Part shown: piece by piece, positions 15,710 through 45,311 of the stretch
How positions within the stretch are numbered: position 1 is the stretch's first letter
Layout of the letters: every line of letters begins with the position of its first letter
Virus record (IMG/VR): IMGVR_UViG_3300042567_000999
Coordinates: 1 to 64,000 of that record
Origin: a virus
Direction: 5' to 3' (one strand)
DNA: 64,000 nucleotides
Notes under the pieces: generated by a model
The model's database searches: none
What the model saw: only the letters and a program-made list of their open reading frames with translations
What the model was told of the DNA's origin: nothing
Made by a program: the position numbers and the translations under genes

Positions 15710-16613
15710 AATATGAATTATATACTAATTTTATACCTTCACTTAAAGGTGTGAATTTAAAATTTGGAAACAAATTTTTAAATTTATCTATTGATACGTC
15801 TTTTCTAAATTGACCATTTGGTTTGGTTGTATCCCAATTTATTTTTATGTTTTGATTATTTGTGACTTTTAATGCTATTTCAGCCATATCTTTAATTGAT
15901 AAGTTTTCTTCTGTTGCAACATTAAAACTATCGTTCACACCACTATCAATTGTCATTTTTATAATTTCAGCAAAATCACCTGCAAACATAAATTGACGTA
16001 ATGGAGTTCCGTCACCAAAAAGAGTTATATCATCTTTTTTATTTTTTTTTGATGAGTGTATTTTTTTTATAAGGGATGTTAAAAAATGACTTTTATTTTC
16101 ATCATCTTTATCTTCTTCACCGTATAAATTACAAGGTATTAGGTATTGATAGTTTAAATTGTATTGTTGGTTGTATGCGTCTATTTGTGCCCCCATTGAA
16201 CGTTTAGAATACCCATATGAAAAATTTGTTATAGTTGGTGGTCCGTCATGTAACATTGACTCATCCATCGGATATTTTTTTGCGATGTCAGGATAGATAC
16301 AAGTACTTAAAATACCTATAAATTTTTTTACTTTAAAAATTCTAGAATACTCAACTAAAAGAGTATTCATTAAAACGTTTTGTGTGAAATATTCCGCAGG
16401 GTGCTCAATATTATCAATTATTCCCCCAACCCTAGCGGCTAAATGTATTACAATATTTGGTTTGTGTTTTAAAAACATCTTTTGAACACCATTTTCTGTA
16501 GTTAAATCGTAATCTTTAGATGAGATATATACGGCATCAGGTAATATTTTTTTTAGATACTTCCCAACTAACCCAGAACCTCCGGTTACTAATATTTTAT
16601 TTTCATTATTCAT
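15693..16613 (-). CDS. colC: GDP-fucose synthase / ColC-like epimerase-reductase
   Basis: 306 residues. TGGSGLVG (10-17) binds NADPH, and AARVGGIIDN matches the family signature. STCIYP contains the active-site cysteine, SYGYSKR the Tyr133/Lys137 pair, and ENKSHFL the conserved histidine. This family covers both GDP-L-fucose synthase (Fcl) and ColC, which both epimerise C-5 and reduce C-4. Sequence alone cannot separate them here. The adjacent ColD-like gene argues for ColC, and thus GDP-L-colitose. It overlaps the ColD-like gene by 17 bases. Confidence 0.8.
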   Translation of the reverse strand: MNNENKILVTGGSGLVGKYLKKILPDAVYISSKDYDLTTENGVQKMFLKHKPNIVIHLAARVGGIIDNIEHPAEYFTQNVLMNTLLVEYSRIFKVKKFIGILSTCIYPDIAKKYPMDESMLHDGPPTITNFSYGYSKRSMGAQIDAYNQQYNLNYQYLIPCNLYGEEDKDDENKSHFLTSLIKKIHSSKKNKKDDITLFGDGTPLRQFMFAGDFAEIIKMTIDSGVNDSFNVATEENLSIKDMAEIALKVTNNQNIKINWDTTKPNGQFRKDVSIDKFKNLFPNFKFTPLSEGIKLVYNSYYGKIS

Positions 16614-16617
16614 AATC

Positions 16618-17391
16618 TTAATTTAAATGCCAAACATGGAAACTCAATGATTCCAAATCTTTATTTCTTTCAATAAGAGTTTTAATATCATCATCTGTAA
16701 ATTTTTCTGACCTACCATCCCTACCATGTAATTCGTATGTAACATTTTTTGTTAAAAATTTATCATTATGATGTTCATAAACAAAATTTCCATATATTTC
16801 GTAGTCCGCAGGAACACAGTACTCAGAAATGTTTTTGTAAACAAGTTCTAAAAAATCTTCAGGTGTATTACAATTACATTTCAATAACATGTCTTTTATT
16901 ATTTTTTTATTATACATCATGAATTCACAGACAAATGAATGATTAAAACGCTCATTTAACCCCAAAACATTTTTATTGAATGTAAAATACGGTTCATGTA
17001 TGTAATCTCTTCCCAAATAGAAAATGGTTTTTCCATCTTCAAAAAAGTTTAAAGGTTTTAATATTACAGAATCCGCCTCTATAACTAAAAAATTATCATT
17101 TTTAGTTACATTTTGAAACAATTTTAAAAATATCTGATATGTCCAGTTAGGTCTATATTCCAAACGAGACCTATCGATTTTTAAAACATCAGTTTCATTG
17201 TGTAAGTATATTGGTTTTTTAGTGATACCTTTTAAAATATCAAGGTCATTAAAAGGTTCTCTTTCACTCAATATTAAGTGTATAGAATCAAAATTTAAAT
17301 TATACTCAGATTGTTCCACTATAAATTTTATGTGTGAAAAATCTTTTTCATGAGCAACAATTACTAAATCATATGAGGGTTCATTATTCAT
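16618..17391 (-). CDS. Glycosyltransferase-like protein (DUF6492-type)
   Basis: 257 residues. The start SYDLVIVAHEKDFSHIKF, then NFLVIEADSVILKPLNFF (a D-x-(V/I)-(L)-containing donor-site stretch), and YIHEPYFTFNKNVLG resemble the DUF6492 group of GT-A-like enzymes in polysaccharide clusters. The C-terminal YELHGRDGRSEKF and SFHVWHLN are typical late motifs. It overlaps the small HAD gene by four bases and follows the ColC-like gene by four. The sugar transferred is unknown. Confidence 0.6.
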   Translation of the reverse strand: MNNEPSYDLVIVAHEKDFSHIKFIVEQSEYNLNFDSIHLILSEREPFNDLDILKGITKKPIYLHNETDVLKIDRSRLEYRPNWTYQIFLKLFQNVTKNDNFLVIEADSVILKPLNFFEDGKTIFYLGRDYIHEPYFTFNKNVLGLNERFNHSFVCEFMMYNKKIIKDMLLKCNCNTPEDFLELVYKNISEYCVPADYEIYGNFVYEHHNDKFLTKNVTYELHGRDGRSEKFTDDDIKTLIERNKDLESLSFHVWHLN

Positions 17392-17687
17392 TCGTTAAAA
17401 AAAAAATTATCATTTATTCCTTTATCATCAATAAAAACATCTGCATGAACCTTTTTACCAACAATTAATTTATCAAAATTTACACCCCAACTACGTAATT
17501 GATTTTCTGTTAAATCGTACCAATCGATACCTGTTGTCGCTCCTCTTGCGGTATCAATTATAATTTTATTACCATTTTCATGTAACTCATTTACTTTTTT
17601 TATTCTTTTTAAAAATGGCTCAGCATTTTTATAATCTCCATTAGTGTTGGTACACAGAGTACCATCTAAATCAAAACAATATATCAT
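17388..17687 (-). CDS. Small HAD-superfamily phosphatase (capsule-type)
   Basis: 99 residues. FDLDGTLC is an intact HAD motif I. IIIDTARGATTG gives motif II, GKKVHADVFIDDKGIND motif III/IV with the double Asp. Such minimal HAD proteins without a cap are frequent in capsule and O-antigen clusters and are predicted sugar-phosphate phosphatases. It is coupled to both neighbours (four-base overlap with the DUF6492-like gene, one-base overlap with the GT-B gene). A substrate such as a nonulosonate 9-phosphate or heptose phosphate is possible but not shown. Confidence 0.7.
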   Translation of the reverse strand: MIYCFDLDGTLCTNTNGDYKNAEPFLKRIKKVNELHENGNKIIIDTARGATTGIDWYDLTENQLRSWGVNFDKLIVGKKVHADVFIDDKGINDNFFFNE

Positions 17688-18646
17688 TATATTATATTTA
17701 TTATTTTTTCTTTTGAGAATACAATCTCTTGTGGTCTTATATTATTAATGATGTTTTGGTATATATCCTCATCACTTAACCCAACCAAAGAGATTGTTTT
17801 ATTTGTTTTTTTAGAATCAATTAAACTTATAGAAACTTGTTTATTTGTAACTGACCATTCTTCACTCATAATGTAAAAATCAACATTGCTACCATAGTGT
17901 GTTACAAATCCACCCGCATCTGCTGCCATCATAACTCCAGACGATAAGTAAAATAAAGAAATTAACTCATCTTGTGTTAGGTTATCATTTATTTCGATAT
18001 AATTAGAATTTTTGATATCAAAAGATTTTGGAGGGAACCCAATATTTACTATTTTTATACCATTATCAATTAGATGATTTAAAGTTTTTTCTAAATAAGG
18101 TAAAGTATTTGCCGTATTATGAATATTCGCTTTATTGGTGAAATTACGAGTTAGGACAATTATGGTTTTGTCATTGAATAGGTTACCGTATTTTTGTTTT
18201 ACGGACCCAAATATTTTTTTTGTTGGAGTTATTGTTAGTCCATCATCAAAAAATTTTTTAGCGTATTCAAAAGATTTACGATAATATTCTAATGGTGGTT
18301 TGTTAATTTCATCTACAACACCAATGTCATAATCAGTATTTTGCCAACTTTTAATATCTATATTTTCAGAACCATATTTTTCAAAACAAAACTTCACACA
18401 TCGATTTAAAAAATCGTCATTTCTTCTTGTGTCTAATTTTTCTAAAATTGCGGGATATGAAAATAAATCACCATCTTTAATAGTAATTATTTCATCTGCC
18501 TCAGATATTACAATATTACCTTTATATGGAACTACAGCAATAACATATTCATAACCATTTAATTCTTTTAAATTTCTTATAAAAGAATTAAATGGTAATA
18601 ATTGATTCCATTCATCTGGATGGGTTATTGCTAAAAGTTTTTTCAT
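17687..18646 (-). CDS. Putative GT-B glycosyltransferase
   Basis: 319 residues from the ATG at 18646 (MKKLLAITHPDEW). An ATG six codons further upstream overlaps the NeuB gene and is less likely. The C-terminal half has IIVLTRNFTNKANI, then IVNIGFPPKSF and MMAADAGGFVTHYGSNVDFY. That last motif resembles the donor-binding D-x-G-x-x-H-x-A/G element of heptosyltransferase-like (GT9/GT-B) enzymes. There is no membrane segment. Its place between the small HAD and NeuB suggests a role in assembling the same glycan. Confidence 0.55.
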   Translation of the reverse strand: MKKLLAITHPDEWNQLLPFNSFIRNLKELNGYEYVIAVVPYKGNIVISEADEIITIKDGDLFSYPAILEKLDTRRNDDFLNRCVKFCFEKYGSENIDIKSWQNTDYDIGVVDEINKPPLEYYRKSFEYAKKFFDDGLTITPTKKIFGSVKQKYGNLFNDKTIIVLTRNFTNKANIHNTANTLPYLEKTLNHLIDNGIKIVNIGFPPKSFDIKNSNYIEINDNLTQDELISLFYLSSGVMMAADAGGFVTHYGSNVDFYIMSEEWSVTNKQVSISLIDSKKTNKTISLVGLSDEDIYQNIINNIRPQEIVFSKEKIINII

Positions 18647-18647
18647 A

Positions 18648-19484
18648 TTATGAAATAATATCATTAACTTTTCTTAATTTTTTTGCGATTGGTTTTTCAG
18701 TTTCAAATACAACCTTTATACCATCTCCTAAAACCGTTTCCATTTTACGAATTCCTGACACTAAATCCCCAACATTTTCAATAGACGCTGATTGGTCAGA
18801 ACCGTACATTGTTCTATCTTTTGTGATGTGAAATTCAACACACTCAGAACCTAAAGCCACTGCTCCAAAACAAGGAATCATTCCACTTGCGTGGTTAGAA
18901 AACCCAATCTTATATTGTGGGTATTTTTCTTTTAAAGTTTTGATATAGTTTAAATTAATTTCTTCATCTTTTGTTGGGTATGTGCTAGTACACGCTAAAA
19001 CGTATTCTACATTATTTAAAATATTAATAGCCGCATCAACTTCTTCCTCTGTTGACATACCAGTAGAAACAATAATTGGTTTACCTGTTGAATTTAATTT
19101 CTCTAAAAATGATTTATCAGTTAATAACGCTGATGCAATTTTATGGTATTTCACGTTTAGATTTGATTCGATTAAATCAACACTTTTTAAATCCCAACAA
19201 GAAACGATAAAATCTAAACCTAAAGCGTTTGAGAATTTTTCTAAGTCTTTGTATTGTTCAATACTAAACTCTAATCCCATCTTTTGTTCACGATTAGTTG
19301 TTCCCCAAGGAGATTCTCTTTGAGTGTCTAATTCTTCTTTAGTGTATACTGATTCAATATCTCTTTTTTGAAATTTGACAGCGTCACATTCGTAAGTTTT
19401 AGCCATTACGATAAGTTCTTTAGCTAAATCAAGGTCACCATTATGGTTGATACCTATTTCTGCAATTACATAAGTTTTTTTCAT
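18648..19484 (-). CDS. neuB: NeuB-family nonulosonate synthase, lacking the SAF domain
   Basis: 278 residues. AEIGINHNGDLDLAKELI (8-25) is the NeuB signature. AVKFQKRD, GLDFIVSCWD, KIASALLTD, PIIVSTGMST, CTSTYPT and IGFSNHASG are the TIM-barrel motifs that bind PEP and metal. VEFHITKDRTMYGSDQSAS is the C-terminal barrel signature. Full-length NeuB is about 340 residues with a C-terminal antifreeze-like (SAF) domain, which is missing here. The enzyme condenses PEP with an aldose (or its 6-phosphate) into a 3-deoxy-2-keto acid. It lies next to a SIS isomerase. Confidence 0.85.
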   Translation of the reverse strand: MKKTYVIAEIGINHNGDLDLAKELIVMAKTYECDAVKFQKRDIESVYTKEELDTQRESPWGTTNREQKMGLEFSIEQYKDLEKFSNALGLDFIVSCWDLKSVDLIESNLNVKYHKIASALLTDKSFLEKLNSTGKPIIVSTGMSTEEEVDAAINILNNVEYVLACTSTYPTKDEEINLNYIKTLKEKYPQYKIGFSNHASGMIPCFGAVALGSECVEFHITKDRTMYGSDQSASIENVGDLVSGIRKMETVLGDGIKVVFETEKPIAKKLRKVNDIIS

Positions 19485-19490
19485 TTTTTA

Positions 19491-20066
19491 TTATTTAAAC
19501 ATTTTATTTTCTACTATTTCTAAAATTGTATGCCCAAGTAGTGTGTGACATTCTTGTATTCTTGCGGTGTTATTTGAGGGTATAATTAAATTATAATCTG
19601 ATATATCTTTCATTTCCCCACCATCATTACCAATAAAGGATGCGATAATCGCTCCCTTGTTTTTAGCGACTCCAATTGCTTTAATAACATTTTTTGATTT
19701 ACCTGAGGTTGAGAAACAAATTAGAATATCACCTTCTTTTACTGATGATTTAATTTCTCGTGAGAAGATATCTGAATATGAGTAATCATTTCCTACCGCA
19801 GTTAAATAAGAAACATTGGCCGCTAATAAAACAACTTCTAACGGGTCTCTATCAAAATAGAATCGACCACTTAATTCTGCTGAAAGGTGTTGTGCATCAG
19901 CAAAACTTCCACCATTACCACAAAAGAATACTTTATTACCGTTTTTATAACACTCGATGATTTTTTCTGCAATCGTATTTGAGTTGTTTATAATCTCTTT
20001 GTCATTCAATAGTTCAGTCTTCAATTTAATTGACTCCTGAATATTCTTTATAACCATTTCTACCAT
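19491..20066 (-). CDS. gmhA: SIS-domain sugar isomerase, GmhA-like
   Basis: 191 residues. FFCGNGGSFADAQHLSAELS is the GmhA signature, with STSGKSKNV and FIGNDGG following, and IQECHTLLGHTI supplies the C-terminal catalytic Glu/His. GmhA turns sedoheptulose 7-phosphate into glycero-manno-heptose 7-phosphate. No other heptose-pathway gene (bifunctional kinase/adenylyltransferase or epimerase) is nearby, so the product may instead feed the NeuB reaction. An RBS-like GGAGGG eight bases upstream is also coding for the SDR gene. Confidence 0.85.
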   Translation of the reverse strand: MVEMVIKNIQESIKLKTELLNDKEIINNSNTIAEKIIECYKNGNKVFFCGNGGSFADAQHLSAELSGRFYFDRDPLEVVLLAANVSYLTAVGNDYSYSDIFSREIKSSVKEGDILICFSTSGKSKNVIKAIGVAKNKGAIIASFIGNDGGEMKDISDYNLIIPSNNTARIQECHTLLGHTILEIVENKMFK

Positions 20067-20878
20067 ACTGTTTTCCCTCCGTCTATTACAACATTCGAAC
20101 CTGTCATATATGAACTTGCGTCAGAACACATAAACACAATCGCACCTTTATATTCATCAATGTGAGCCATTCTACCCATCGGTATAATATTAGATAACTT
20201 AGTTACAAAATCAACAGGATGGTCGTTATAAACACCTGTCGGACTTAAACAATTTACTCTAATATTATTTTTGGCGAAATATGTAGAAAGATATTTTGTC
20301 ATACCAATTACAGCCCATTTGGCTGCCGAATATGTAATTGGTTTTACATTCTGTTCGTTTTCAGATTTTGTTTCATCTCTGTAGATTCTTTGGTCAGGTG
20401 CAATCACACCCAAATCAGACGAAATGTTTAATACAACACCACCACCCGTTTCTAACATTTTATTACAAATTACTTGTGAAGTAATAAAAGTTCCGTTTAT
20501 AATTGCATCAATACCTTCTTTAAAATACGATTCAGTCATCACCTCAAATCTTGTTTCAGGCGTTAAACTTTTATCGTCTTTTGTGACTTTTGGGTCTTTA
20601 GCCGCGTTATTAATAAGGATATCGATTCTTTCATATTTGTTTGACACCTCATTTACACTTTTTTTGTCTGTAACATTCATGTATTCCATAAACACATTTT
20701 CTTCCCCATAAACTGAAGAAAGTTCTTTGTGTTTTTTAGATAACATATCCATGTCGACATCTGTAAGAATTACTTTAGCCCCATATTCTAAAAGAGCCTC
20801 GGCGTGTTTTGGACCTAATAATCCACCCGCGCCGGTAATTAAAGCAACCTTACCATCTAAATCAAATAAGTTTCTCAT
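20060..20878 (-). CDS. Short-chain dehydrogenase/reductase
   Basis: 272 residues. TGAGGLLG (N-terminal glycine motif), NNAAKDP, NISSDLG and YSAAK (catalytic Tyr/Lys) are in classical SDR order. The C-terminal GSNVVIDGG is typical. No substrate can be assigned. It is coupled to the GmhA-like gene (seven-base overlap) and the TIM-barrel gene (four-base overlap), so it very likely oxidises or reduces an intermediate of the same sugar pathway. Confidence 0.8.
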   Translation of the reverse strand: MRNLFDLDGKVALITGAGGLLGPKHAEALLEYGAKVILTDVDMDMLSKKHKELSSVYGEENVFMEYMNVTDKKSVNEVSNKYERIDILINNAAKDPKVTKDDKSLTPETRFEVMTESYFKEGIDAIINGTFITSQVICNKMLETGGGVVLNISSDLGVIAPDQRIYRDETKSENEQNVKPITYSAAKWAVIGMTKYLSTYFAKNNIRVNCLSPTGVYNDHPVDFVTKLSNIIPMGRMAHIDEYKGAIVFMCSDASSYMTGSNVVIDGGKTVW

Positions 20879-21642
20879 AATAATGTTTTGATTTTTTGGT
20901 ATGTATTTTTTATGTAATTTATTTCATCACCATCCACATCTCTTGCAAGTTGCAATATGATGTTATCAGTGTAATTAATATTTTTTAATGAATCAATTAT
21001 AGTTTTAAAATTGGTATCGCCTAACCCAAAATGTTTTGTTTCACCATTAAAAGTTCTATCTTTAAAATGAACATTTTTTATTTTTGACCCGAAGTAATTT
21101 ATTAATTCTTCATGGTCTATTTTTTCTTTATATGTTGAGGTGAAATTACCGGTATCATAGGTAATAAAAAAATTGTCTTTATTATTTACGACATCCATCA
21201 CAATTTCTTTATCACATTCAAATTCAAAACAAAAATTAATTGATGGATATTTTTCAGATATTGGAATTATGTTTTTTAAAAATTCATATCTGATATATTC
21301 ATTTTCCACTGAACTATCTTCTAAAAGTGGTATTACTATTTTATTCAATTTTAGTTCTACCATTTTATCTAAAACAGGTACTAAATTTTGATTCATAAAT
21401 TCATCTTTGTAAAATGAATTATTAACCATAGTATCTACACAAACCGATAAGATGTTAGTGGGTAAATTAGATTCAATAAATAATGGATTATTTAAGTTAT
21501 CGTTTGGAGTTATTAACCATTCGATACCACTCAACTCGATATGATTTAAAACATTAAATTCGGATTTCCAGTTAAGTGGAAACTCTTGCATTTTTTTATT
21601 GACCGGCTCACTAAGACGACCTTGTAAAACTCCTACTATCAT
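20875..21642 (-). CDS. Sugar isomerase/epimerase-like TIM-barrel protein
   Basis: 255 residues of the xylose-isomerase-like (AP endonuclease 2) fold. VGVLQGRLSEP opens the barrel. INFCFEFECD, FFITYDTGNF and IKNVHFKDRT supply the usual metal-ligand acids and histidine. QLARDVDGDE closes it. It overlaps the VOC and SDR genes by four bases each. A role in epimerising the sugar-acid precursor is plausible. Confidence 0.7.
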   Translation of the reverse strand: MIVGVLQGRLSEPVNKKMQEFPLNWKSEFNVLNHIELSGIEWLITPNDNLNNPLFIESNLPTNILSVCVDTMVNNSFYKDEFMNQNLVPVLDKMVELKLNKIVIPLLEDSSVENEYIRYEFLKNIIPISEKYPSINFCFEFECDKEIVMDVVNNKDNFFITYDTGNFTSTYKEKIDHEELINYFGSKIKNVHFKDRTFNGETKHFGLGDTNFKTIIDSLKNINYTDNIILQLARDVDGDEINYIKNTYQKIKTLL

Positions 21643-22052
21643 AATAACTCAACAAATTCTATAATATTATTTTCTGGGTCCGAACCAAAAAAAACTTTAA
21701 CCGTTTTTTCATCAGAAATTGTCGGAGTATTAATGATAGGTAAATTATTATCAATAAACTTATCGTAAAGAGTTTTAACATTATCTATAGTAAATGCAAA
21801 ATGAGTGTACCCGTTTTCAAAAAGACTTTTTTTATTTATTTCACAACTTCCAAAATAAAGCAATTCAACTATTGTTTTATTATCTTTACCCAATTTAATA
21901 ATTCTTGGAGATTTATTAACAGAATTAAGTATATGATTTAAAAACCGACCTTCTTCTATTTTATCATAAAGAATTTCCAATCCAATTACATCTTGATAAA
22001 ACCATTTCATTTTATCCAAGTCGTTTACGACTATACCAACGTGCCTAAACAT
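21639..22052 (-). CDS. VOC-family (glyoxalase-like) protein
   Basis: 137 residues. RHVGIVVNDLDKMKWFY at the N terminus and GYTHFAFTIDNVK, FGSDPENNIIEFVE further on give two beta-alpha-beta-beta-beta modules with the metal-binding His and Glu of the vicinal-oxygen-chelate superfamily. These enzymes act as epimerases, dioxygenases or lyases, so no single reaction can be chosen. It is embedded in the nonulosonate-type genes, with overlaps of four (TIM-barrel) and 22 (aminotransferase) bases. Confidence 0.75.
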   Translation of the reverse strand: MFRHVGIVVNDLDKMKWFYQDVIGLEILYDKIEEGRFLNHILNSVNKSPRIIKLGKDNKTIVELLYFGSCEINKKSLFENGYTHFAFTIDNVKTLYDKFIDNNLPIINTPTISDEKTVKVFFGSDPENNIIEFVELL

Positions 22053-23365
22053 TCTATCAAACTTTCTTTTAAAACTCCAATACCTTCAATTAACGCATCA
22101 TCATCAATAGTTAATGGAGGACCTATTTTTAATGTTCCTGATTGTGTCCTAATTGATAATAAACCTTTTCTCATTGCAACTTCTATTATCATATCAACAA
22201 AATCAACGTCATTTCCATTTGGTGATTTGATGAAAACCCCCGCCAATAATCCTTTACAGTTTATTTTTTTTACATAATCAGGCATTTCTTCTTTCCACTT
22301 TAATAATTCCGTTTCCATTATCTTACCTTTCCGATATGATTCGTTAATCAAATCATTATCTAAAAGATATTCTACAGAAGCTTTTGACGCGGCAACCGCA
22401 ACAGGGTTACCCCCATGTGTGCTGTTGTATGACATATCGTTGTTAATAATTTTATTATTAGTTATTACGCAAGATAATGGTAATGATGATGAAATCCCTT
22501 TAGCACAAACAATTATATCGGGAGTAATATCAAAATGTTCATAAGCGAATAATTTACCTGTCCTACCAAACCCTGATTGTATCTCGTCAATTATTAATAA
22601 GACGTTATTATGTTCACACCATTTTTTTAATAATTTAACATATTCTTTTGACGCAAATTCGGCTGACCATCCTTGATATGGTTCCATGATTACTGAGGAA
22701 TACTCAGAAGGATTTATATCTTTAAAATATTTTTCAAAAAGTTCTTGTGGTAACAACCCTTCTTTTTCTAATGTAATAGTATCAGGGTAAGGTAAATGAG
22801 TTACATATGTTTTAACGGGTATCCATTCTTGTGATTTAAATTTACCACCTGCCATTGCCGACCCCATAGTTTTGCCATGATAACCATTATTGAATGAGAT
22901 GATTTTGTTTTTACCTGTATGTTTAATTGACATTTTAATTGCACACTCAACAGACTCAGAACCGGTAGATAAAAATAAAACTTTGTCTAAATTTTTAGGT
23001 GAAACATTAACTAATAGTTTAGAAAATTCAGACCTTTCTTTGGTTGGGTAATAATAAGCGTTTAATAAATTTTTATTAGTCGTAGAGATAATAGCTTCTT
23101 TTACTTTTGGGTTTGAGTGCCCTACATTTGTGACAAATATTGATGAGGTAAAATCTATCCATTTATTACCTGATATATCATAAATTGAATAATTTAATGC
23201 CGAATCCCACACTACGGGTAGTTGGTCATTCATTGAATTTGGCTCATACTTGATACAATTATTTAAATACTCTAATGATTGTGGAGATGGAATTGATGTT
23301 GTAATGTTTCTATAACGTGTTTTTACAGAATCACATTTAACCGGTGTTAACTGGAACTTATACAT
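22031..23365 (-). CDS. Class III PLP-dependent aminotransferase
   Basis: 444 residues. STGSESVECAIK and NNGYHGKTMG form the phosphate and ring sites, IIDEIQSGFGRTG holds the conserved Asp, CAKGISSSLPLS the PLP lysine, and STHGGNPVA the C-terminal loop. It matches the acetylornithine/glutamate-semialdehyde type. In glycan clusters such enzymes aminate a keto-sugar or isomerise an amino group. The NeuA-like gene lies directly upstream with an eight-base overlap. Reaction not determinable from sequence. Confidence 0.85.
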   Translation of the reverse strand: MYKFQLTPVKCDSVKTRYRNITTSIPSPQSLEYLNNCIKYEPNSMNDQLPVVWDSALNYSIYDISGNKWIDFTSSIFVTNVGHSNPKVKEAIISTTNKNLLNAYYYPTKERSEFSKLLVNVSPKNLDKVLFLSTGSESVECAIKMSIKHTGKNKIISFNNGYHGKTMGSAMAGGKFKSQEWIPVKTYVTHLPYPDTITLEKEGLLPQELFEKYFKDINPSEYSSVIMEPYQGWSAEFASKEYVKLLKKWCEHNNVLLIIDEIQSGFGRTGKLFAYEHFDITPDIIVCAKGISSSLPLSCVITNNKIINNDMSYNSTHGGNPVAVAASKASVEYLLDNDLINESYRKGKIMETELLKWKEEMPDYVKKINCKGLLAGVFIKSPNGNDVDFVDMIIEVAMRKGLLSIRTQSGTLKIGPPLTIDDDALIEGIGVLKESLIECLGTLV

Positions 23366-24026
23366 TTTTTTTACTTAAAATATACTCAATATAATTAAAA
23401 TCATCAATAGTGTCAATTTCATAAGTTTTATCAGTAATAAATGAATAAATTTTATCACCATAAAAACTATCTGAATCCATAAAAATTTCAGGGGTTACTA
23501 TATCAACATATCCGTTAGGTGAATATGTTTTAGGATAACTTTGTCTAGGTAAATTAGTATCCATAGTATCAACTATAGGTTGCCAAAACTCACCATTTTT
23601 TGTATAAAACTTATATACAGATTCTGAAGTTTCATGTGCAGACCTAAGACTTGTTATGTTTTTTTTATTTTTTAAAAACACTTCAATAGCGTTATCAATG
23701 ACTAATGGATTTACTAAAGGGGTTGTTGCTCTTAAATGTATTATTGGTTCAGTATGGTTTAATTCTTTGCAAAAATGTCTAAAAGAATCTATATCTAAAG
23801 ATGTGTCAGTTGACAATTCATTAGGTCTTACAATGATTTTACATCCTAGATTCTTTGAGATTTCAATTATCTCCTCATCATCAGAAGAAACATATACATC
23901 TGTAATTTTTTTTGATTCTTTAGCCGAAGTAATTACATACTCAATTAAAGGTTTACCCATTAATTGTTTTATGTTTTTTTTTGGAACGCCTTTACTTCCA
24001 CCCCTTGCTAAAATTAAGGATATCAT
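23358..24026 (-). CDS. neuA: Acylneuraminate cytidylyltransferase (NeuA-like)
   Basis: 222 residues. ILARGGSKGVPKKNI (N terminus) is the CTP-binding signature. VSSDDEEII, HLRATTPLVNP and SYPKTYSPNGYVDIV follow in NeuA order, and YEIDTIDDF closes. The enzyme couples a nonulosonic-acid-type sugar to CMP. With the NeuB-like synthase in the same run it should produce the activated donor, which the Maf/DUF115-like protein two genes away could use. KdsB was considered, but the ending fits NeuA better. Confidence 0.85.
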   Translation of the reverse strand: MISLILARGGSKGVPKKNIKQLMGKPLIEYVITSAKESKKITDVYVSSDDEEIIEISKNLGCKIIVRPNELSTDTSLDIDSFRHFCKELNHTEPIIHLRATTPLVNPLVIDNAIEVFLKNKKNITSLRSAHETSESVYKFYTKNGEFWQPIVDTMDTNLPRQSYPKTYSPNGYVDIVTPEIFMDSDSFYGDKIYSFITDKTYEIDTIDDFNYIEYILSKKNV

Positions 24027-24721
24027 TTTTTTTCCGCTTTACAAATTAACATTGCCTCTTTTGAGAATCTAATAATCTTGTTTGTTTTTTTACCCCATAA
24101 TACTTTTTCAAATGGTGAGTATGGTAATGGTAATTTTTGAATGATGTATCTAAAAATGTTTAAAAATGAATATTTCCATGTTAATGGTAACTGATAAAAA
24201 TATTCACACTCAGAAACAAACCCAGATAGGTCACAAGCGGTTTCTAATGAATATCTAGTGAAAGGTGTAACATGTGTGTGGTCAATATAGAAAGCCTCCT
24301 TATACGAATGTTTCCAACTCGGAGCCATACAAATTAATACGCCACCCTTTTTTAACATTCTATATGATTCATCTAATAAAATATCCGGATTTTGTAGATG
24401 CTCAACAACAGATTTTGAAAAAATAAAATCAAATTTTTCATCTTTAAACGGATATTTTTTTTCGTTTAAATCATAAGATTTAAATTTTTTTGACGGTATG
24501 TTTTCTTTTGAGGAATTTGATATGTCCATTCCATAAGCATCTATACCACATTCAATAAAACATTTTGTTATTACTCCATCACCACATCCAATATCTAAAA
24601 TCTTAGCCCCTTCTTTTATGTTATATTTTTTTATAATATAGTTAACTAACTTTTTTGGGTAATCTGATTTATTTTCTTTATATGTTTTTTGAACATAATT
24701 AGGATTAAATATTGAACTCAT
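24023..24721 (-). CDS. Class I SAM-dependent methyltransferase
   Basis: 232 residues. ILDIGCGDGVITKCF is motif I, YGMDIS motif post-I, FDFIFSKSVVEHL motif II and LKKGGVLICMAPSW motif III. The C-terminal part is hydrophobic-aromatic with no clear helix through the membrane. Such enzymes methylate sugars or lipid-linked intermediates in O-antigen clusters. It is coupled to the NeuA-like gene and the DUF115-like gene (four-base overlaps each). Confidence 0.8.
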   Translation of the reverse strand: MSSIFNPNYVQKTYKENKSDYPKKLVNYIIKKYNIKEGAKILDIGCGDGVITKCFIECGIDAYGMDISNSSKENIPSKKFKSYDLNEKKYPFKDEKFDFIFSKSVVEHLQNPDILLDESYRMLKKGGVLICMAPSWKHSYKEAFYIDHTHVTPFTRYSLETACDLSGFVSECEYFYQLPLTWKYSFLNIFRYIIQKLPLPYSPFEKVLWGKKTNKIIRFSKEAMLICKAEKK

Positions 24722-34656: not shown

Positions 34657-37098
34657 ATGCCAACTCAAAATTTAAATACATATTATTATCCTAAATACAG
34701 AAGTTTATTAAATACGGGACAATATTTTGATTTAACATTGGTTGCGGATGAAAGGGATTATGATGAGGAAGTGGTCTTTTCAACGGACATTATTGCAGCA
34801 AATGACGGAACAAGATTACCAATACGTTTAGATTTAAACGATACTAACTCCTGTCCGCAACTTTCTATGTCTTTCGATGTTTTTTACACGGGGGCAACAC
34901 TTGTGTCAAAAAATTATTACAATCCAAATAATTTAGATTTATCTTGTTTATCGGCATTTACGGGAACTTGTGATATTGGGTTAACAGCGACGGATAATGG
35001 TTTATATACGGGATTGACTGGTGAAACATTATACTATACAATGGGTGTGAGAGACGATTATAAATTTCACCCACATTATTATGATAGAAGGATGAAATTA
35101 CACATGGTGACAGGTTATACGACACCACCTAATACTGTGTTTTCAGGTAGACCAAAAAATGCGATATATAATATAGTTTCTAAAAACCAACCAACAATAG
35201 GGTATTACCAAGAACTATATGGTGGATTTTATCAAGGATTTTATAAATTATTTGGTTATGATTACGAGGTTTTTCCTGAAAGATTAAACAAGGGTTGGAC
35301 TATGGAGACGGTTATCAAACCAAGAATAACCGATGAATTTTCAATTAGTGCTTCAACTGAAGAATATTTAAACACTCGTTATCCAAAAAATGCTGGAACT
35401 TTCTTTTATTTTGGAACAAGAGCTGAAAACAAATATTATCATTTTGCCGATGGTCATCCTGAAAGTAATAGTGGGTATACCAGAGTAACGTCAGGATTAA
35501 CAAGTTTAAGTAGTTGTACGTGTAATGAAACTGGATATACGAATGCAAATTGTGTAAGTCTTTATCCGTCAAGCGCAACAACGGCATATCACAATATTGG
35601 TTGTGGTTGTGGAGCTTGTACAGAACAATTACCAATACCACCTTTGGACCCCAAGTTTGATGTGTTATCAAATGCATTATCAATAAGGTTTAGTGGGTGT
35701 GCTGCGGACCCAAGATTATGTGTTAAAACAATTGTTATTACCGGAGATTGTGTCACAACAGGAAGTTGTTCGACGACAGGATTAACATTTCAAACAGGTT
35801 ATACTATAACTGAAGTTTGTAGTCCTCCGATATACGACGTATGTGATTACATATGTTCTGCGATTACAGAGGATAGATGGGTGATGGTTACCGCAGTATT
35901 TGAAAGGTACACAACGATAGAAGAATGTGATTTACTAAATTTAGGTGGATTAAATGACATTAGACAAGTCACATACCAATCAATATTAAATAACACCTCA
36001 TACAATCTAATAATGCCACCTGAAACACATTCGGGAGGAACTAAAGAAGATAAGGTTTATCGTGTGGTGTTTGATAGAAAATGGTTTGACGATGCTTGGT
36101 ATAGACTCGGTAGATTGAAAATTTATATAAATGGTTACTACTTCATGGTGATTGAAAACTTTGAGGAGATTATACCAAGAGAATTGAATTGTGAAAAAGA
36201 AAAACAACTTGGTGTGCCATTTAACATATCGTGGGGTGGTGGTTCTCAAGGTCTTCACGACCACTTAATATTCAAAGAGTGTTCCACTTGGGATTGGTCT
36301 GTTGGTAATATTGATACCGATTTAATTTATACCGCTTGTAGTGGAAACGTTATAACTCTCACAGGGTTGACAGGACAATCAGGAACAATTTATACTAAAT
36401 TTGATACAACACCGTATTTTACATCAGCATCAACCGCTAGTACGTTAACTTATACCGGAAACTACGTACCATTAGAAGGACCATACGGTCAAGACCCTGA
36501 GTTATTTCCAAATGAAATACTTTCAGCAACAACATATAGTGGTTTAACAACACAAATTTTAATGGAACAGAATTTTGGTGGAACCTTTATGGGTGGATTA
36601 TCACAATTTAGAATGTATACCGAAGCGTTTAATAGTTCACAGGTTCAACATAATTTTAGAATTTTAAAAGATAGATTTAATCTTTTTGATTTTTGGTGCC
36701 CAAATTGTTTAATACCTACACCACCAACTCCGACGCCAACTCCAACACCTACCGCAACTCCGACGCCAACTCCTACACCGACTCCTACACCAACACCAAC
36801 ACCGACTCCTACACCAACACCGACAGGTCAATTTTTAGCGGCGTTAGCAAGTTGTAGTAACCCAAGTCAACCAACACAATCTATGTTATTACCATTATCT
36901 TATCAACCTGTTACTTCAGGTGCGTTTTCGACTTGGTATACTTATGCGGTTAGAGACACATTAGGTAATTGTTGGACAATTACAGGAACATACTTTAATA
37001 CCCCATCAACACCAACTTTAACTTGGAATGGAAGTAACACATTAAATTTAATAAACAACTTTGGTTCTGGTACTTACTCAGGATGTACATCATGTTAA
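34657..37098 (+). CDS. Large fibre-like virion protein with Thr-Pro linker
   Basis: 813 residues, rich in Thr, Gly, Tyr and Cys (several C-x-C pairs), which is unusual for a cytoplasm-assembled protein. The middle, with ITEDRWVMVTAVFERYTT and LKIYINGYYFMVI, has the order of a concanavalin-like or LamG lectin sandwich. Residues ~687-723 are a nearly pure Thr-Pro linker. The last ~90 residues form a separate small beta domain ending in GTYSGCTSC. The linker presents the last domain away from the body, as in receptor-binding fibres. It starts a plus-strand unit behind a good promoter motif. Confidence 0.55.
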   Translation: MPTQNLNTYYYPKYRSLLNTGQYFDLTLVADERDYDEEVVFSTDIIAANDGTRLPIRLDLNDTNSCPQLSMSFDVFYTGATLVSKNYYNPNNLDLSCLSAFTGTCDIGLTATDNGLYTGLTGETLYYTMGVRDDYKFHPHYYDRRMKLHMVTGYTTPPNTVFSGRPKNAIYNIVSKNQPTIGYYQELYGGFYQGFYKLFGYDYEVFPERLNKGWTMETVIKPRITDEFSISASTEEYLNTRYPKNAGTFFYFGTRAENKYYHFADGHPESNSGYTRVTSGLTSLSSCTCNETGYTNANCVSLYPSSATTAYHNIGCGCGACTEQLPIPPLDPKFDVLSNALSIRFSGCAADPRLCVKTIVITGDCVTTGSCSTTGLTFQTGYTITEVCSPPIYDVCDYICSAITEDRWVMVTAVFERYTTIEECDLLNLGGLNDIRQVTYQSILNNTSYNLIMPPETHSGGTKEDKVYRVVFDRKWFDDAWYRLGRLKIYINGYYFMVIENFEEIIPRELNCEKEKQLGVPFNISWGGGSQGLHDHLIFKECSTWDWSVGNIDTDLIYTACSGNVITLTGLTGQSGTIYTKFDTTPYFTSASTASTLTYTGNYVPLEGPYGQDPELFPNEILSATTYSGLTTQILMEQNFGGTFMGGLSQFRMYTEAFNSSQVQHNFRILKDRFNLFDFWCPNCLIPTPPTPTPTPTPTATPTPTPTPTPTPTPTPTPTPTPTGQFLAALASCSNPSQPTQSMLLPLSYQPVTSGAFSTWYTYAVRDTLGNCWTITGTYFNTPSTPTLTWNGSNTLNLINNFGSGTYSGCTSC
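36715..36825 (+). repeat. Thr-Pro-coding hexanucleotide repeat
   Basis: About 37 codons of ACN-CCN alternate to give a Thr-Pro linker with one Ala interruption. The six-base units would expand or contract in frame by slippage, so linker length may vary among phages. Confidence 0.9.
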
Positions 37099-40716: not shown

Positions 40717-41838
40717 TTAAATTACTGTGTATGGGCTTTGGAAAGCTCTTAACTTTAATAATTTGTTTAAGTTCTCCGCTTGTAAAGCCTTTTGTTCCAT
40801 CATTTTTTCCGGACGTAATCTTTCGAGTCTTGTTTTAAGTTCTTCCCACAACATAGCCTTTTCATCTTTCGCTTCTGTAGCCAAAGACGTATAATCCATA
40901 GTTAATTCAGAGTCAGGTGTTTTAAGATTACCACTGAACTTACCTCTAACTCTACCTAAAGTTTCTTTACAATATGCGGTAAACCATCTCCTAACCCACG
41001 TTTGTGCAGGTGGATTAAGTTTATCCCATCTCATTTTATCTAATGGGACATCAGATGGGAGTCTTACTACGTCTGGATTTTTTGCTAAACAATCTTCTCT
41101 ATCAAACGTATCATAATACCAATACCAAACTCTATTACGATTTCTTCTCATATTACCAAAATCAAATTTACCTCCAGGAACATTCATTAAGTGAATCGCC
41201 TTTTTTCCTTCAGGTAACGCTGTAATTCTATATGTTAAATCACCTGTAATAATTCTTCTTTTAATACTGATGTCTGACATCCTTAATAAGATATCAAATG
41301 CTGGAGTAATGAAATAGTTACCCGTAGTCCCGAGTTGTGAAAACCCAGCACCACCACCTAAACCAATACCACCCATACCCCCAAATCCACCCATAAATGG
41401 GTCAAAGTATGCCGCATCTAATTCTGAACGAGCAAACCAAAGAAGTTCATTTATTTCTCTACCTGCAGGTATTTCATAAATTTGTTGGTTATCAATTAAT
41501 TCAATATAATCTTTCTTTAAAACCCAATCACCACCAGCTTGTAAACCCACGATTTTTGAATACGCATATGTGTATTGAGTTTCCCAATCCATACTACGAG
41601 TGGATAATGCTCTTGTAATTGATTGTTCATCAAGGTTTAATCCATAAACAGAAGACCACTGAGATTCTATTAACCAATCTTGGACGTGCTGTTCATAATC
41701 TTCGATTGAAAGTTCTAATAAAGAATCCATCATTTCGTCCTCTAACTCTACAGAACGTAATGGTGCCCCTAAAAGATTTCGTATTCTTTTATAAAGTTTA
41801 CTTCTGTCGGGCTCATTTATGATTACAACGTTTGACAT
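40717..41838 (-). CDS. gp13: Neck protein, T4 gp13-like
   Basis: 373 residues. The C-terminal half has the stretch WVRRWFTAYCKETLGRVRGK followed by NLKTPDSELTMDY and LWEELKTRLERLRP, which I associate with the gp13 family of T4-like phages. Residues ~145-168 are a Gly/Met-rich loop (FDPFMGGFGGMGGIGLGGG) that looks like an insertion. It probably forms the neck ring between portal and tail. The gp15-like gene lies across the helicase on the other strand. A full promoter motif is just upstream. Confidence 0.6.
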   Translation of the reverse strand: MSNVVIINEPDRSKLYKRIRNLLGAPLRSVELEDEMMDSLLELSIEDYEQHVQDWLIESQWSSVYGLNLDEQSITRALSTRSMDWETQYTYAYSKIVGLQAGGDWVLKKDYIELIDNQQIYEIPAGREINELLWFARSELDAAYFDPFMGGFGGMGGIGLGGGAGFSQLGTTGNYFITPAFDILLRMSDISIKRRIITGDLTYRITALPEGKKAIHLMNVPGGKFDFGNMRRNRNRVWYWYYDTFDREDCLAKNPDVVRLPSDVPLDKMRWDKLNPPAQTWVRRWFTAYCKETLGRVRGKFSGNLKTPDSELTMDYTSLATEAKDEKAMLWEELKTRLERLRPEKMMEQKALQAENLNKLLKLRAFQSPYTVI

Positions 41839-41875: not shown

Positions 41876-42964
41876 TTACGATTTTCTAATTTTTAACTGA
41901 GTAGTGTATAGGTCATTTACAAACCCCCAATTCACAACTTTCCAAAAATTTGAAATGTATTCATCTCTTTTATTTTTGTATTTTAAGTAATACGCATGTT
42001 CCCATAAGTCTAAACCTAATAATGGGTATCCATTTTCTTTTTCGGTATTCATTAAGGGATTGTCTTGGTTGGATGTTGTAACAATTTTTAATCTATTATT
42101 TTTTGTTAAAATTAACCAAGCCCATCCTGAACCAAATTTAGTTTTTGCTTCTTCACTAAATTGTTCTTTGAATTTTTCAAATGAACCAAAATCTTTTTCT
42201 ATTTTAGAAAGTATTGGGCCAGATATTTCTTGTTTTTTTGGAGATAACATTTTCCAAAACAAAGCGTGGTTAAACGCACCACCACCATTATTTTTAACTA
42301 CCTTATTAAATTTAGAAATCTTTTCTATAATTTCCTCAAGGTCTAAATCCTTACCTTTAACTTTTTCTAATTCAACATTAAGTTTTTCAACATATCCTTT
42401 GTAGTGTTTGTTGTAGTGGGTTTTCATCGTTTCACTGTCAATAAATCTTTCTAACTCATCATAATTGTAAGGTAGTTTATCGATACTTATTTTTTTTATT
42501 TCACTAATTAACGTTTCTTTGGAATTAAACTCAACCTCCAACAAAGATTCAATCTCATTAATTTTTTTTGAAAAAGGTTTGTATATTGATTTTTCTTTTG
42601 ATTTATTATTTTTCTCAAACTTTTTCATTTCTTGTGATGCTTGTGCACTTGCTTCATCTTCATTTTTTCCACCGATATCTTTTCCTTTTTTTCTTTTCAA
42701 AATAGTTCTTTGGTGTTCATGTGACCATTCATGCGCCAATGTTCTTAAAACATCTCGATTCAATCTACCTTTAACTAAAATTTTAAGTTTGTTTTTGTTG
42801 GTTCTTGAACCAGTTGTCATTTCGCCAGTTCTTTTATTTTGAAATAGAATATCAATATCATCCTTTAATGGATAATTTTTTTTTAGTTGAGTTATAAAAT
42901 CGTCAATTAATACTTTATCACCCTTTGTAGGTTCAACTCCAATATATTCAATATTCACTTCCAT
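41876..42964 (-). CDS. Fusion: HExxH metalloprotease-like domain plus Mn-type superoxide dismutase
   Basis: 362 residues. Residues ~1-115 have a zincin-like domain: LRTLAHEWSHEHQ gives His78-Glu79-x-x-His82, followed by GKDIGGKNEDEASAQAS, where an acidic residue could be the third ligand. A helical linker runs to ~160. From 164 a superoxide dismutase begins with LPYNYDELERFID. Ligands align as His183 (in KTHYNKHYKGYV), His233 (NGGGAFNHALFW), Asp319 and His323 (LGLDLWEHAYYL). The GGG before the second histidine and Gln300 in SNQDNPLM point to Mn rather than Fe. All four ligands are kept. It overlaps no gene, but a promoter-like motif lies directly upstream. Confidence 0.85.
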   Translation of the reverse strand: MEVNIEYIGVEPTKGDKVLIDDFITQLKKNYPLKDDIDILFQNKRTGEMTTGSRTNKNKLKILVKGRLNRDVLRTLAHEWSHEHQRTILKRKKGKDIGGKNEDEASAQASQEMKKFEKNNKSKEKSIYKPFSKKINEIESLLEVEFNSKETLISEIKKISIDKLPYNYDELERFIDSETMKTHYNKHYKGYVEKLNVELEKVKGKDLDLEEIIEKISKFNKVVKNNGGGAFNHALFWKMLSPKKQEISGPILSKIEKDFGSFEKFKEQFSEEAKTKFGSGWAWLILTKNNRLKIVTTSNQDNPLMNTEKENGYPLLGLDLWEHAYYLKYKNKRDEYISNFWKVVNWGFVNDLYTTQLKIRKS

Positions 42965-42965
42965 G

Positions 42966-42976
42966 ATAAATAAATA
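42966..42976 (-). promoter_or_regulatory. TATTTATTTAT motif before the SOD fusion
   Basis: The minus strand reads ATATTTATTTATCATG; the ATG is the start at 42964. Two overlapping TATTTAT copies lie in the 12 bases between the helicase stop and this start. Confidence 0.35.
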
Positions 42977-44740
42977 TCATCGGATGCCGGAAATCATATT
43001 TAACATTTCTTCTATTGAAGATGCCTCATCAAACATATCATCACCCATTACTGTTGAAATGATTTTCTTTTTTCTATTTAATATGTCGTAAATGGCTCCT
43101 TCTATTGTGTTTTCAAATAAAGGGTAATAAACTGATGTTGAATTTTTTTGACCAATACGGTGTGACCTATCTTCGGCTTGCGAATGTTCGGCAGGAACAA
43201 AAGATAAATCATTCATAATTACGGCTTCCGCTGAGGTTAAAGTGATACCAACACCAGCAGCTTTAAGGTTACCAACAAATACTTTGATTTTATCGTTTGT
43301 TTGAAATTCATCAACAGAATTTTGTCTGTGAAACTTAGAACAACTACCATCTAAATAAACTGCAGATTTACCAAAATGGTTATAGATTTCATTTAATGTG
43401 TCCGTGAAGTTTGTAAATATGATAACTTTTTTACCTTGCTCTATAATGTTTTCCGCTAACTCGATTGTGTTTTTAATTTTTTCTTTAGCGATTACTTTTC
43501 TTACTTTCATTAGTTTTGAAAACTGAATGGTAAGTGATGTCGACTCTTCAGGGTTTTGGTCATACCAATCAAAATATTCACCAACTAACTCTTCGTAGTC
43601 TTTTGATTTTAGTCTTAAATAAACGGGAGTAATAATTTTTTCAGGTAAATCCAAAACCTCTTCTTTTAATCTTCGTAGAATATGTGTTTGGGTTCTTTCC
43701 CTTAACTCATCAAGATTAGATGCTCCTGTAACATTCCATACCTTTCTTTTCCCAACACTAAATTGGAATCCGTTACAATACCTTTTAGCGTAAGCCATCC
43801 AATTCATTGCTACGGGACTATCAACAAGGTTTAATAAATTATAATAGTTCATAGGTCGAGAAGTCATTGGTGTTCCCGATAATAACCATACTCTATTTGA
43901 TTTACTTGCAATGTCGTTAGCGATTTTTGTTCTTTGTGCTTGTGGATTAGAAATCATATGTGCCTCATCCATGATTACCAAATCAAAATTAATTTTCATT
44001 ATTTCTGACTTTTCGGTTTCTTTAGCGTCATGGAAATTTTTTAAGATGTCGTAGTTAACAATAACAAAATCATGTTCATCTGAAAATTTCTTACCTTCTG
44101 CAATATATACGGTTCTATCTGAATAATTTGCAATCTCCCTTTCCCAATTTATTTTTAAAGATGCTGGACACACAATCAAAACTTTTTTGGCTCCCGTTTC
44201 TAAAGCTGCGATGATTGTTGATGTAGTTTTACCAAGACCCATATCATCCGCCAAAATAAACTTTTTATTTTTTACAAGTTTCTCAATTGCTTCTTTTTGG
44301 TGTTCCATAGGTGGTCTATGGGTATATTTTTCATAATCGATAGAAATGTTTTTGACTTCGTTATCTTTTAGTAATGCAGATTTTGGCATCCAAAAGTCGT
44401 GTAAAGTTTCTCCCGAAAAGATTTTACCCCAAATATGATAAGCCTTATCCTTTTCAACTAACAACTTCTCGACATAAATTTCTGATGGTTCTTTGGTATA
44501 CATCTTATCTTCCATCAGTTTTTTACCAAAATAAGAGTCTAACTTGACCCATTTTTTAGCAACTTTTGGTTGTAGGGTGTGATAATTATTGATGTAATCC
44601 GCCTGAGGTCTTGTAGGTACAAAAGACTTACTATTTTGTTTTTTGTGTTTTAAATTAAGGATGTAGTTATTTGACCCTTCATAATCGTCTAATATTAAAA
44701 GGGCTTTTGATTCGGGTGTTTTAGGCACAAAATCTTCCAT
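42977..44740 (-). CDS. SNF2-family helicase
   Basis: 587 residues from the ATG at 44740 (MEDFVPKTPESK). An in-frame ATG at 44926 would run through the divergent promoter and into the next gene and is rejected. MEHQKEAIEKL is motif Q-like, DDMGLGKTT (165-173) Walker A, MDEAH (257-261) Walker B, LSGTPMTSRP motif III. The C-terminal half has VIIFTNFTDT, LDGSC and AEDRSHRIGQ, the SNF2 motifs IV-VI. It is closest to SMARCAL1-type annealing or fork-remodelling helicases. Such enzymes stand in for T4 UvsW in some phages. Confidence 0.9.
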   Translation of the reverse strand: MEDFVPKTPESKALLILDDYEGSNNYILNLKHKKQNSKSFVPTRPQADYINNYHTLQPKVAKKWVKLDSYFGKKLMEDKMYTKEPSEIYVEKLLVEKDKAYHIWGKIFSGETLHDFWMPKSALLKDNEVKNISIDYEKYTHRPPMEHQKEAIEKLVKNKKFILADDMGLGKTTSTIIAALETGAKKVLIVCPASLKINWEREIANYSDRTVYIAEGKKFSDEHDFVIVNYDILKNFHDAKETEKSEIMKINFDLVIMDEAHMISNPQAQRTKIANDIASKSNRVWLLSGTPMTSRPMNYYNLLNLVDSPVAMNWMAYAKRYCNGFQFSVGKRKVWNVTGASNLDELRERTQTHILRRLKEEVLDLPEKIITPVYLRLKSKDYEELVGEYFDWYDQNPEESTSLTIQFSKLMKVRKVIAKEKIKNTIELAENIIEQGKKVIIFTNFTDTLNEIYNHFGKSAVYLDGSCSKFHRQNSVDEFQTNDKIKVFVGNLKAAGVGITLTSAEAVIMNDLSFVPAEHSQAEDRSHRIGQKNSTSVYYPLFENTIEGAIYDILNRKKKIISTVMGDDMFDEASSIEEMLNMISGIR

Positions 44741-44784
44741 GATATAATATAATATAATAAAATTAAACAAAAAATCAATCAAAG

Positions 44785-44791
44785 TATTTAT
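44785..44791 (+). promoter_or_regulatory. TATTTAT motif before gene 44796
   Basis: GTATTTATAGGTATGG places the motif four bases before the ATG at 44796. It is read rightward for this gene; its complement (TATAAATAC) faces the helicase. Confidence 0.4.
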
Positions 44792-44795
44792 AGGT

Positions 44796-45311
44796 ATGGC
44801 AGATAATAGAGTTCCAATAACCAGACTTAATAAGTTTTTCTCTGAAGAAGACTTTAACTTAGATATTTCTATAGGCGACGAATGGTTAGGTGGAGATATG
44901 AATTTTACCCTTGTTTTATACCGCATCGATAGACAAAGAACTATTAGTGATGATGTGTACGGTGAAACATTAGAAGACGGAATTCAATTCTTACCACCTA
45001 TTGAGTTTAAGGGGTATGTTCAAATTGAAGCTTCAACTAATGTTGATTACGGGTCATCAAGATTATCACAATCAGAACCTGGAAATCTTAAAGTTGGTGT
45101 TTATCAAAAACAACTTGAGGAGTTGGATATTGATATTAATTTTGGAGACTATATTGGTTATTATGAAACAGAAGATAGAGTTAGATACTATACTGTTGTG
45201 AATGATGGTCGTGTGTTAAGTGATAATAAACATACATACGGGGGGTATAAACCTTTCTATCGTTCCATATTGGCTTCTCCTGTCACAGACAATGAATTTA
45301 AAGGATTATAA
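44796..45311 (+). CDS. Putative neck/head-tail connector protein
   Basis: 171 residues. The stretch DDVYGETLEDGIQFLPPIEF with FKGYVQ following resembles the D-x-Y-x-E-D...ie-gY pattern of T4 gp14-type neck proteins, and DYIGYYETEDRVRYYTVV follows. The sequence is short compared with T4 gp14 (256 residues), so this is tentative. It is two bases upstream of the gp15-like gene and leads the sheath-tube module. Confidence 0.45.
   Translation: MADNRVPITRLNKFFSEEDFNLDISIGDEWLGGDMNFTLVLYRIDRQRTISDDVYGETLEDGIQFLPPIEFKGYVQIEASTNVDYGSSRLSQSEPGNLKVGVYQKQLEELDIDINFGDYIGYYETEDRVRYYTVVNDGRVLSDNKHTYGGYKPFYRSILASPVTDNEFKGL

Follow-up and report, generated by a model that had tools for sequence, protein, structure and literature searches.

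In the 64,000-nucleotide stretch of viral DNA analysed here (the window, part of an 83,426-base virus record), a single gene joins a predicted zincin-type metalloprotease domain, through a linker, to a full Mn-type superoxide dismutase (SOD). Among its relatives the SOD is the conserved part of the protein, while the zincin comes and goes. We propose that the gene encodes a late-expressed multi-enzyme protein of the polyvalent type, in which a catalytically complete, Mn-preferring SOD core carries an exchangeable N-terminal gluzincin, a reading that we regard as about equally likely to be right or wrong. The features of the locus are given in Table 1.

Table 1. Features of the fusion gene and of the genes on either side of it, in window positions.
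Feature	Position	Strand	Basis
Fusion gene, 362 aa: zincin, linker, Mn-type SOD	41876..42964	-	ORF from ATG to stop; fused relatives
Predicted mini-gluzincin domain, residues 1-120	42605..42964	-	AlphaFold2 model and zincin structure matches
HEWSH, residues 78-82: predicted zinc ligands H78 and H82, predicted catalytic E79	42719..42733	-	Invariance in relatives
E102, proposed third zinc ligand, in the next helix	42659..42661	-	Invariance; model helix 100-119
Linker, residues 121-160	42485..42604	-	Alignment; kept in SOD-only relatives
Mn-type superoxide dismutase, residues 161-354; ligands H183, H233, D319, H323; Q300 and G317 at Mn-type positions	41903..42484	-	
Late-promoter-like TATTTAT, 5 nt before the ATG	42970..42976	-	Enrichment in the window; conservation in relatives
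SNF2-type helicase, upstream neighbour	42977..44926 as listed	-	PHROG 62 DNA helicase, E 4.5e-116
Head-tail adaptor-like (neck) protein, downstream neighbour	40717..41838	-	PHROG 211, E 1.8e-10, C-terminal 60 residues

The original prediction placed both domains in one protein, and a single open frame indeed spans them at exactly the coordinates then claimed. When the same architecture was sought in other phages, scanning IMG/VR with the full-length protein returned at least 600 candidate stretches, a relative being encoded in 566 of those listed, and scanning it with the zincin profile returned 473, of which 462 encode a relative. Among 396 viral loci on IMG/VR contigs, 320 ORFs are fused and 310 of these are complete (some contigs were fetched by several queries and hence counted more than once), giving 119 distinct complete sequences. 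Zincin-only ORFs number 36 (22 distinct, 3 ending at a contig end) and SOD-only ORFs 38 (32 distinct). The two parts are thus not separate genes, and the fusion is not an assembly error, since it recurs in 119 distinct complete sequences. Both halves are under purifying selection: over 74 pairs each, the median dN/dS is 0.165 in the SOD and 0.339 in the zincin, and over 60 pairs it is 0.438 in the linker. The full-length fusion is absent from 50,697 named phage records, none of which covers 80% of the protein; the SOD part is matched in 28 of them, some being bacterial-looking contigs filed as phages. PHROGs and PADLOC gave no help on the function of the window protein.

Both Pfam domains of the Fe/Mn SODs are matched above their cut-offs, namely: Sod_Fe_N (PF00081) at residues 161-241 (E 7.5e-23) and Sod_Fe_C (PF02777) at residues 249-350 (E 9.7e-42). 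Residues 161-354 match solved Mn-SODs (best 5n56, E 4.4e-60), the closest structures being bacterial SODs, and NCBIfam places superoxide dismutase [Mn] first (E 2e-60), though its 204 bits fall short of the curated cut-off of 363. The four metal ligands and the Mn-type Gln listed in the original prediction all read out as claimed, and H183, H233, Q300, D319 and H323 are identical in 46/46 non-redundant members. In a wider check of 136 distinct matched sequences, conservation is 112/113 for H183, 111/112 for both H187 and Y191, 110/110 for H233, and 109/109 for each of Q300, G317, D319, E322 and H323; a single odd row (L209) departs at positions 183, 187 and 191. A C-terminal Gln and a small XD-2 residue are described as going with Mn preference, 78% of the tested enzymes with a C-terminal Gln being Mn-preferring in that account (PMC10172142). 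The SOD half is a complete Fe/Mn SOD, predicted from Q300 and G317 to be Mn-preferring, and the conserved active site argues strongly for its catalytic competence.

The N-terminal domain of the window protein carries the zincin signature HExxH-19-E. H78, E79, H82 and E102 are identical in 46/46 non-redundant members, the window copy included, and the zincin residue set is identical in 115/115 in the wider check. An AlphaFold2 model of residues 1-150 built from 40 sequences (pLDDT 88.9, pTM 0.81) places HExxH in a helix spanning residues 70-87 and E102 in a helix spanning residues 100-119. The best structural matches of this model are the catalytic domains of M1 aminopeptidases (5ab2; Z 9.5, rmsd 3.0, 112 residues aligned); YbeY (1oz9; Z 9.3, rmsd 2.8, 108 aligned) and Wss1 (5xbv; Z 8.4, rmsd 3.2, 108 aligned) are matched as well. 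Model and matches bear out the placing of the HExxH helix in a zincin fold, with a Glu ligand predicted in the next helix. Among the matches listed, no curated sequence family scored above its cut-off. Weak matches to DUF6055 were seen for 27/40 members at E <= 1 (best 0.00046, among the matches listed for 25 of 48 families), and the other weak zincin matches listed are to Peptidase_M78 (5), SprT-like (5) and DUF4344 (4 of the 40 members). The best sequence match of the zincin profile to a solved structure has an E of 0.37 only. That the zincin is an ordinary host gene was rejected for the sampled genomes: just 2 of 395 Bacteroidia genomes match, one (L162) at the edge of a MAG contig and the other (L362) weakly (E 9.8e-6). 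A scan of genome contigs for the zincin gave 1 relative among 21 candidate stretches.

The phage SODs are consistent with a single capture. In a tree that also holds 30 Bacteroidia and 5 other rows, the 35 phage SODs fall in a single clade (100/100) set off by a long branch. The root of this tree is not fixed; it samples only the best Bacteroidia matches and excludes the divergent L368 (PA5oct) and L369 (Vibrio phage). A related SOD is already present in 117 of 119 sampled Bacteroidia genomes, and the need for a phage copy is therefore not obvious.

The fusion carriers are a group of uncultured T4-like phages. The head protein is of the T4 type (PHROG 138, E 3.9e-66), and the nearest named relatives, each below 60% identity, include the uncultured phage LR756508, Microcystis phage Mel-JY01, Flavobacterium phage immuto and Rhodothermus phage RM378; the host of the window phage is likely a member of the Bacteroidota. 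The gene order is fixed as SNF2 helicase, fusion and head-tail adaptor, with the helicase upstream and/or the adaptor downstream in every fused locus tabulated; past the neck gene, where the sequence extends, lie a small gene and then a DNA polymerase on the other strand. The fusion does lie among structural genes, as had been stated. At E 1e-5 no named phage matches the neck protein, and comparison with L071 suggests that the true start of the helicase is probably near 44740. Elsewhere in the window, a sugar-biosynthesis block (13587-24721, minus strand) has matches, all below NCBIfam cut-offs, to GDP-mannose 4,6-dehydratase, GDP-fucose synthase, N-acetylneuraminate (NeuB) or pseudaminic acid synthase, a PseF-type cytidylyltransferase, phosphoheptose isomerase and aminotransferases, and the phage may make a nonulosonic-acid-type sugar. 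An 813-residue protein encoded at 34657-37098 (plus strand) has a long TPTPTP repeat close to its C-terminus.

The constancy of the SOD was examined at loci anchored on the neck gene, 80 for the window clade and 80 for a sister clade; both anchors cover the loci nearest to the query, and more distant phages could differ. In the window clade the SOD is present at 80/80 loci, 53 with the zincin, 26 without it and 1 ending at a contig end. In the sister clade it is present at 78/80, arranged as zincin-SOD-extension (44), zincin-SOD (23), SOD-extension (9) or SOD (2); the remaining 2 have neither SOD nor zincin. In these two (L427 and L435), other genes lie between the SNF2 helicase and the neck gene, and the slot in L427 holds a stand-alone gene resembling a nuclease-like module. 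On a tree of 80 SOD sequences the zincin state changes 11 times (10-12 in the bootstrap; well supported branches force 8 or more of these changes), and that of the extension 6 times. Sister pairs differ in the zincin (L143/L284, L283/L292 and L298/L291), and in L282/L284 the start of the zincin is joined to its end, that is, by an in-frame deletion; outside these pairs and deletion cases, loss and gain of the zincin are indistinguishable. A search for the zincin anywhere in 9 records found it missing from 7 (up to 291,867 bases), L299 being itself fused and L282 holding a remnant.

The C-terminal extensions of the sister clade (37 distinct) comprise three families with no relation to one another, plus one fragment, to which neither Pfam nor PHROGs gives a name. 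The largest family (X1), absent from the window protein, carries D...QxK, with D158 and Q172-x-K174 invariant in 11/11. The most frequent structural matches of its model (pLDDT 72.5) are PD-(D/E)XK nucleases at middling scores, the best being SPARDA nuclease chains (Z 7.3, rmsd 4.0, 119 aligned), with I-Ssp6803I at Z 6.2 and EcoRV at about 4. By this model, one extension type may resemble PD-(D/E)XK nucleases.

The timing of expression is suggested by TATTTAT, which resembles the T4 late promoter. The motif is found in 12 of the 56 upstream regions of the window vs. 0.78 expected, the sheath, tube and neck genes being among those it precedes, and just 5' of the gene in 67/69 fused and 17/17 SOD-only distinct upstream regions. 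The promoter-like motif noticed earlier is thus real, and together with the neighbouring genes it gives moderate support to late expression of the fusion gene. TATTTAT ends about 4-5 nt before several start codons (upstream of 2473, 41876, 44796 and others), and late transcripts would be nearly leaderless if it works like the T4 late promoter. In some sister phages a terminator-like hairpin is found in front of the gene.

A multi-enzyme protein built on an SOD core could act as follows. Motif and neighbours suggest late transcription, driven by a TATTTAT element of its own and concurrent with that of the head and tail genes. The protein would be made during head assembly and some copies would enter the virion, possibly to be packaged and delivered with the DNA as for the chlorovirus SOD. 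Given the conserved active site, the SOD would convert superoxide to H2O2 and O2, by which the incoming genome, iron-sulphur enzymes and the infected cell's respiration would be protected. The zincin, and the nuclease-like or other C-terminal domains of the sister phages, would have proteins or nucleic acids of the host as their targets, and such modules would be gained and lost with host change while the SOD stays. Several results count against this proposal: two sister-clade loci have no SOD, most of the sampled Bacteroidia genomes already encode a related one, the window protein has neither a targeting-type peptide nor a canonical head-protease site in its linker, and no published polyvalent partner domain was found in it. 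A bolder form of this proposal, which we put forward tentatively and consider unlikely, makes the SOD the constant chassis of a virion-delivered protein with swappable cargo: a peptidase is lost or regained in front, nuclease-like and other modules are swapped behind, and the linkers that join them resemble the N-terminal peptide of the stand-alone relatives (MKxIxxESQ). On infection the SOD would then neutralise a host response based on superoxide, and the modules would be directed at host targets that change.

Alternatively, the protein might be a late metabolic helper that stays in the cytosol and is never packaged, its SOD sustaining respiration during particle production and its zincin being a late protease or a passenger. 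We give this alternative some credence without favouring it. The consensus site of T4-type head proteases is [LI]xE[AG]. The window gene has the late-type motif, yet its protein lacks a targeting-type peptide at the N-terminus and an [LI]xE[AG] site in its linker. Putative Microcystis viruses have also been suggested, in the account given in PMC12542629, to carry an Fe/Mn SOD as an auxiliary metabolic gene. A cytosolic role would, however, leave unexplained both the fusion with exchangeable enzyme modules and the N-terminal peptide motif of the stand-alone relatives of the C-terminal modules, and the chlorovirus precedent, as described in PMC7019647, is packaged.

The linkers bear on a further alternative, namely that the zincin serves in processing, cutting the linker to release the SOD, as autoprocessing has been proposed for some polyvalent proteins, whose zincins are the suggested agents (PMC5512222). 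It would fit a linker rich in [LIVMF]xE (165 vs. 115 in shuffled sequences for extension-free proteins; 168 vs. 94 for those with the extension), but helix periodicity and common descent could account for the motif, and stand-alone zincins occur without an SOD. Moreover, the linker is kept without the zincin at 26 loci of the window clade and 11 of the sister clade; the zincin is therefore unlikely to be present mainly to process its own protein, and we judge this alternative improbable.

Processing of the linkers by the head protease is just an idea, because the motif excess on which it is based could also stem from helix periodicity and shared descent. The motif was counted in 52 proteins without the extension (the window's kind) and 37 with it, groups that are not tree clades. 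In the 37, the zincin-SOD linkers contain [LI]xE[SNQAG] 54 times vs. 13.0 in shuffled sequences and the SOD-extension junctions 53 times vs. 7.5 (0/1000 shuffles as high in either); in the linkers of the 52 it occurs 28 times vs. 18.2 (17/1000). The T4-type consensus itself is above shuffles in the SOD-extension junction (7 vs. 2.0; 5/1000 as high) and not clearly so in the zincin-SOD linkers (4 vs. 1.8, 90/1000; 5 vs. 3.6, 296/1000). By eye, the head protein has INE|A near its N-terminus.

A motif is also found at the start of several proteins of these phages. Relatives of two extension modules stand alone in the slot and start with MKYIFTESQ or MKFIMSESQ (L400 and L402). Start positions of [ILMVF]x[TSN]E[SQ], counted in 1387 distinct ORFs whose rows are related, fall 22 times in residues 1-10, 13 times in residues 11-20 and 0 to 8 times in later ten-residue bins, and 5 families carry the motif near their start. 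Unrelated proteins start with an MKxI[ITMS]xES/E-type peptide (L400, 3875-4969; L402, 3785-4960; L161, 3133-3927), which is perhaps a shared targeting or processing signal.

Finally, that the domain pairing is an assembly or frameshift artefact or a decayed, functionless fusion can be dismissed as next to impossible, the former being ruled out by the 119 distinct complete fused sequences and both being opposed by invariant active sites and a dN/dS well below 1.

The reading of a late multi-enzyme protein with an SOD core matters for what it says about infection. The SOD is kept in nearly every sampled member of the group while its partner enzymes turn over, and this indicates that superoxide matters to these infections. 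Whether reactive oxygen is a bacterial weapon against phages, and whether phages counter it, becomes testable with one protein, and SOD would join the repertoire of multi-enzyme phage cargo proteins.

Compared with known systems, the SOD half shares with bacterial Mn-SODs the PF00081 and PF02777 domain pair, the four ligands, the C-terminal Gln and the XD-2 Gly, and the best of the Bacteroidia matches listed are 44-53% identical; it differs in being a piece of a larger protein and in forming its own clade on a long branch. The zincin half is the same domain as the stand-alone mini-zincins of uncultured phages, such as L161 (59% identity to the window zincin) and A0A6J5L9U4 (34% identity, TM 0.78/0.91), which are not joined to an SOD. 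The genes that border the fusion are absent from the available flanks of the 33 stand-alone zincins listed, and an SOD match is absent from the 10 such records searched.

Among viral SODs, that of the chlorovirus PBCV-1 is virus-encoded like the window SOD, but of the Cu/Zn type; it is described as a late gene product packaged in the virion (PMC7019647), and SOD is named among the virion enzymes of giant viruses (PMC9405923). The SOD-like proteins of PA5oct (gp223) and Vibrio phage 2.275.O show 26-29% identity and are SOD-sized genes without a zincin by annotation. PA5oct gp223 (L368, 2956-3504), from a Pseudomonas jumbo phage, is 26% identical and annotated as hypothetical with the record note ESI-MS/MS, and is a lead for a virion-borne phage SOD.

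In architecture the fusion resembles the polyvalent proteins of phages and conjugative elements. These are described as joining unrelated enzyme domains in one chain, most commonly a zincin with HExxH and a Glu in the next helix, and as being delivered with the DNA (PMC5512222). The fusion likewise has at least two unrelated enzyme domains per chain, zincin and SOD, with variable partners around a zincin hub and a third domain from three families in its relatives. It differs in that the main text of PMC5512222 does not contain the word superoxide, and the Pfam matches of the window protein and of 8 extensions include none of the published partner domains (ArdC-N, MuF and others). The literature covered on phage SODs or such fusions yielded no paper on a zincin-SOD fusion. 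Taken together, Mn-SODs, mini-gluzincins and multi-enzyme phage cargo proteins are each known, and the use of an SOD as the fixed core of such a protein appears to be new.
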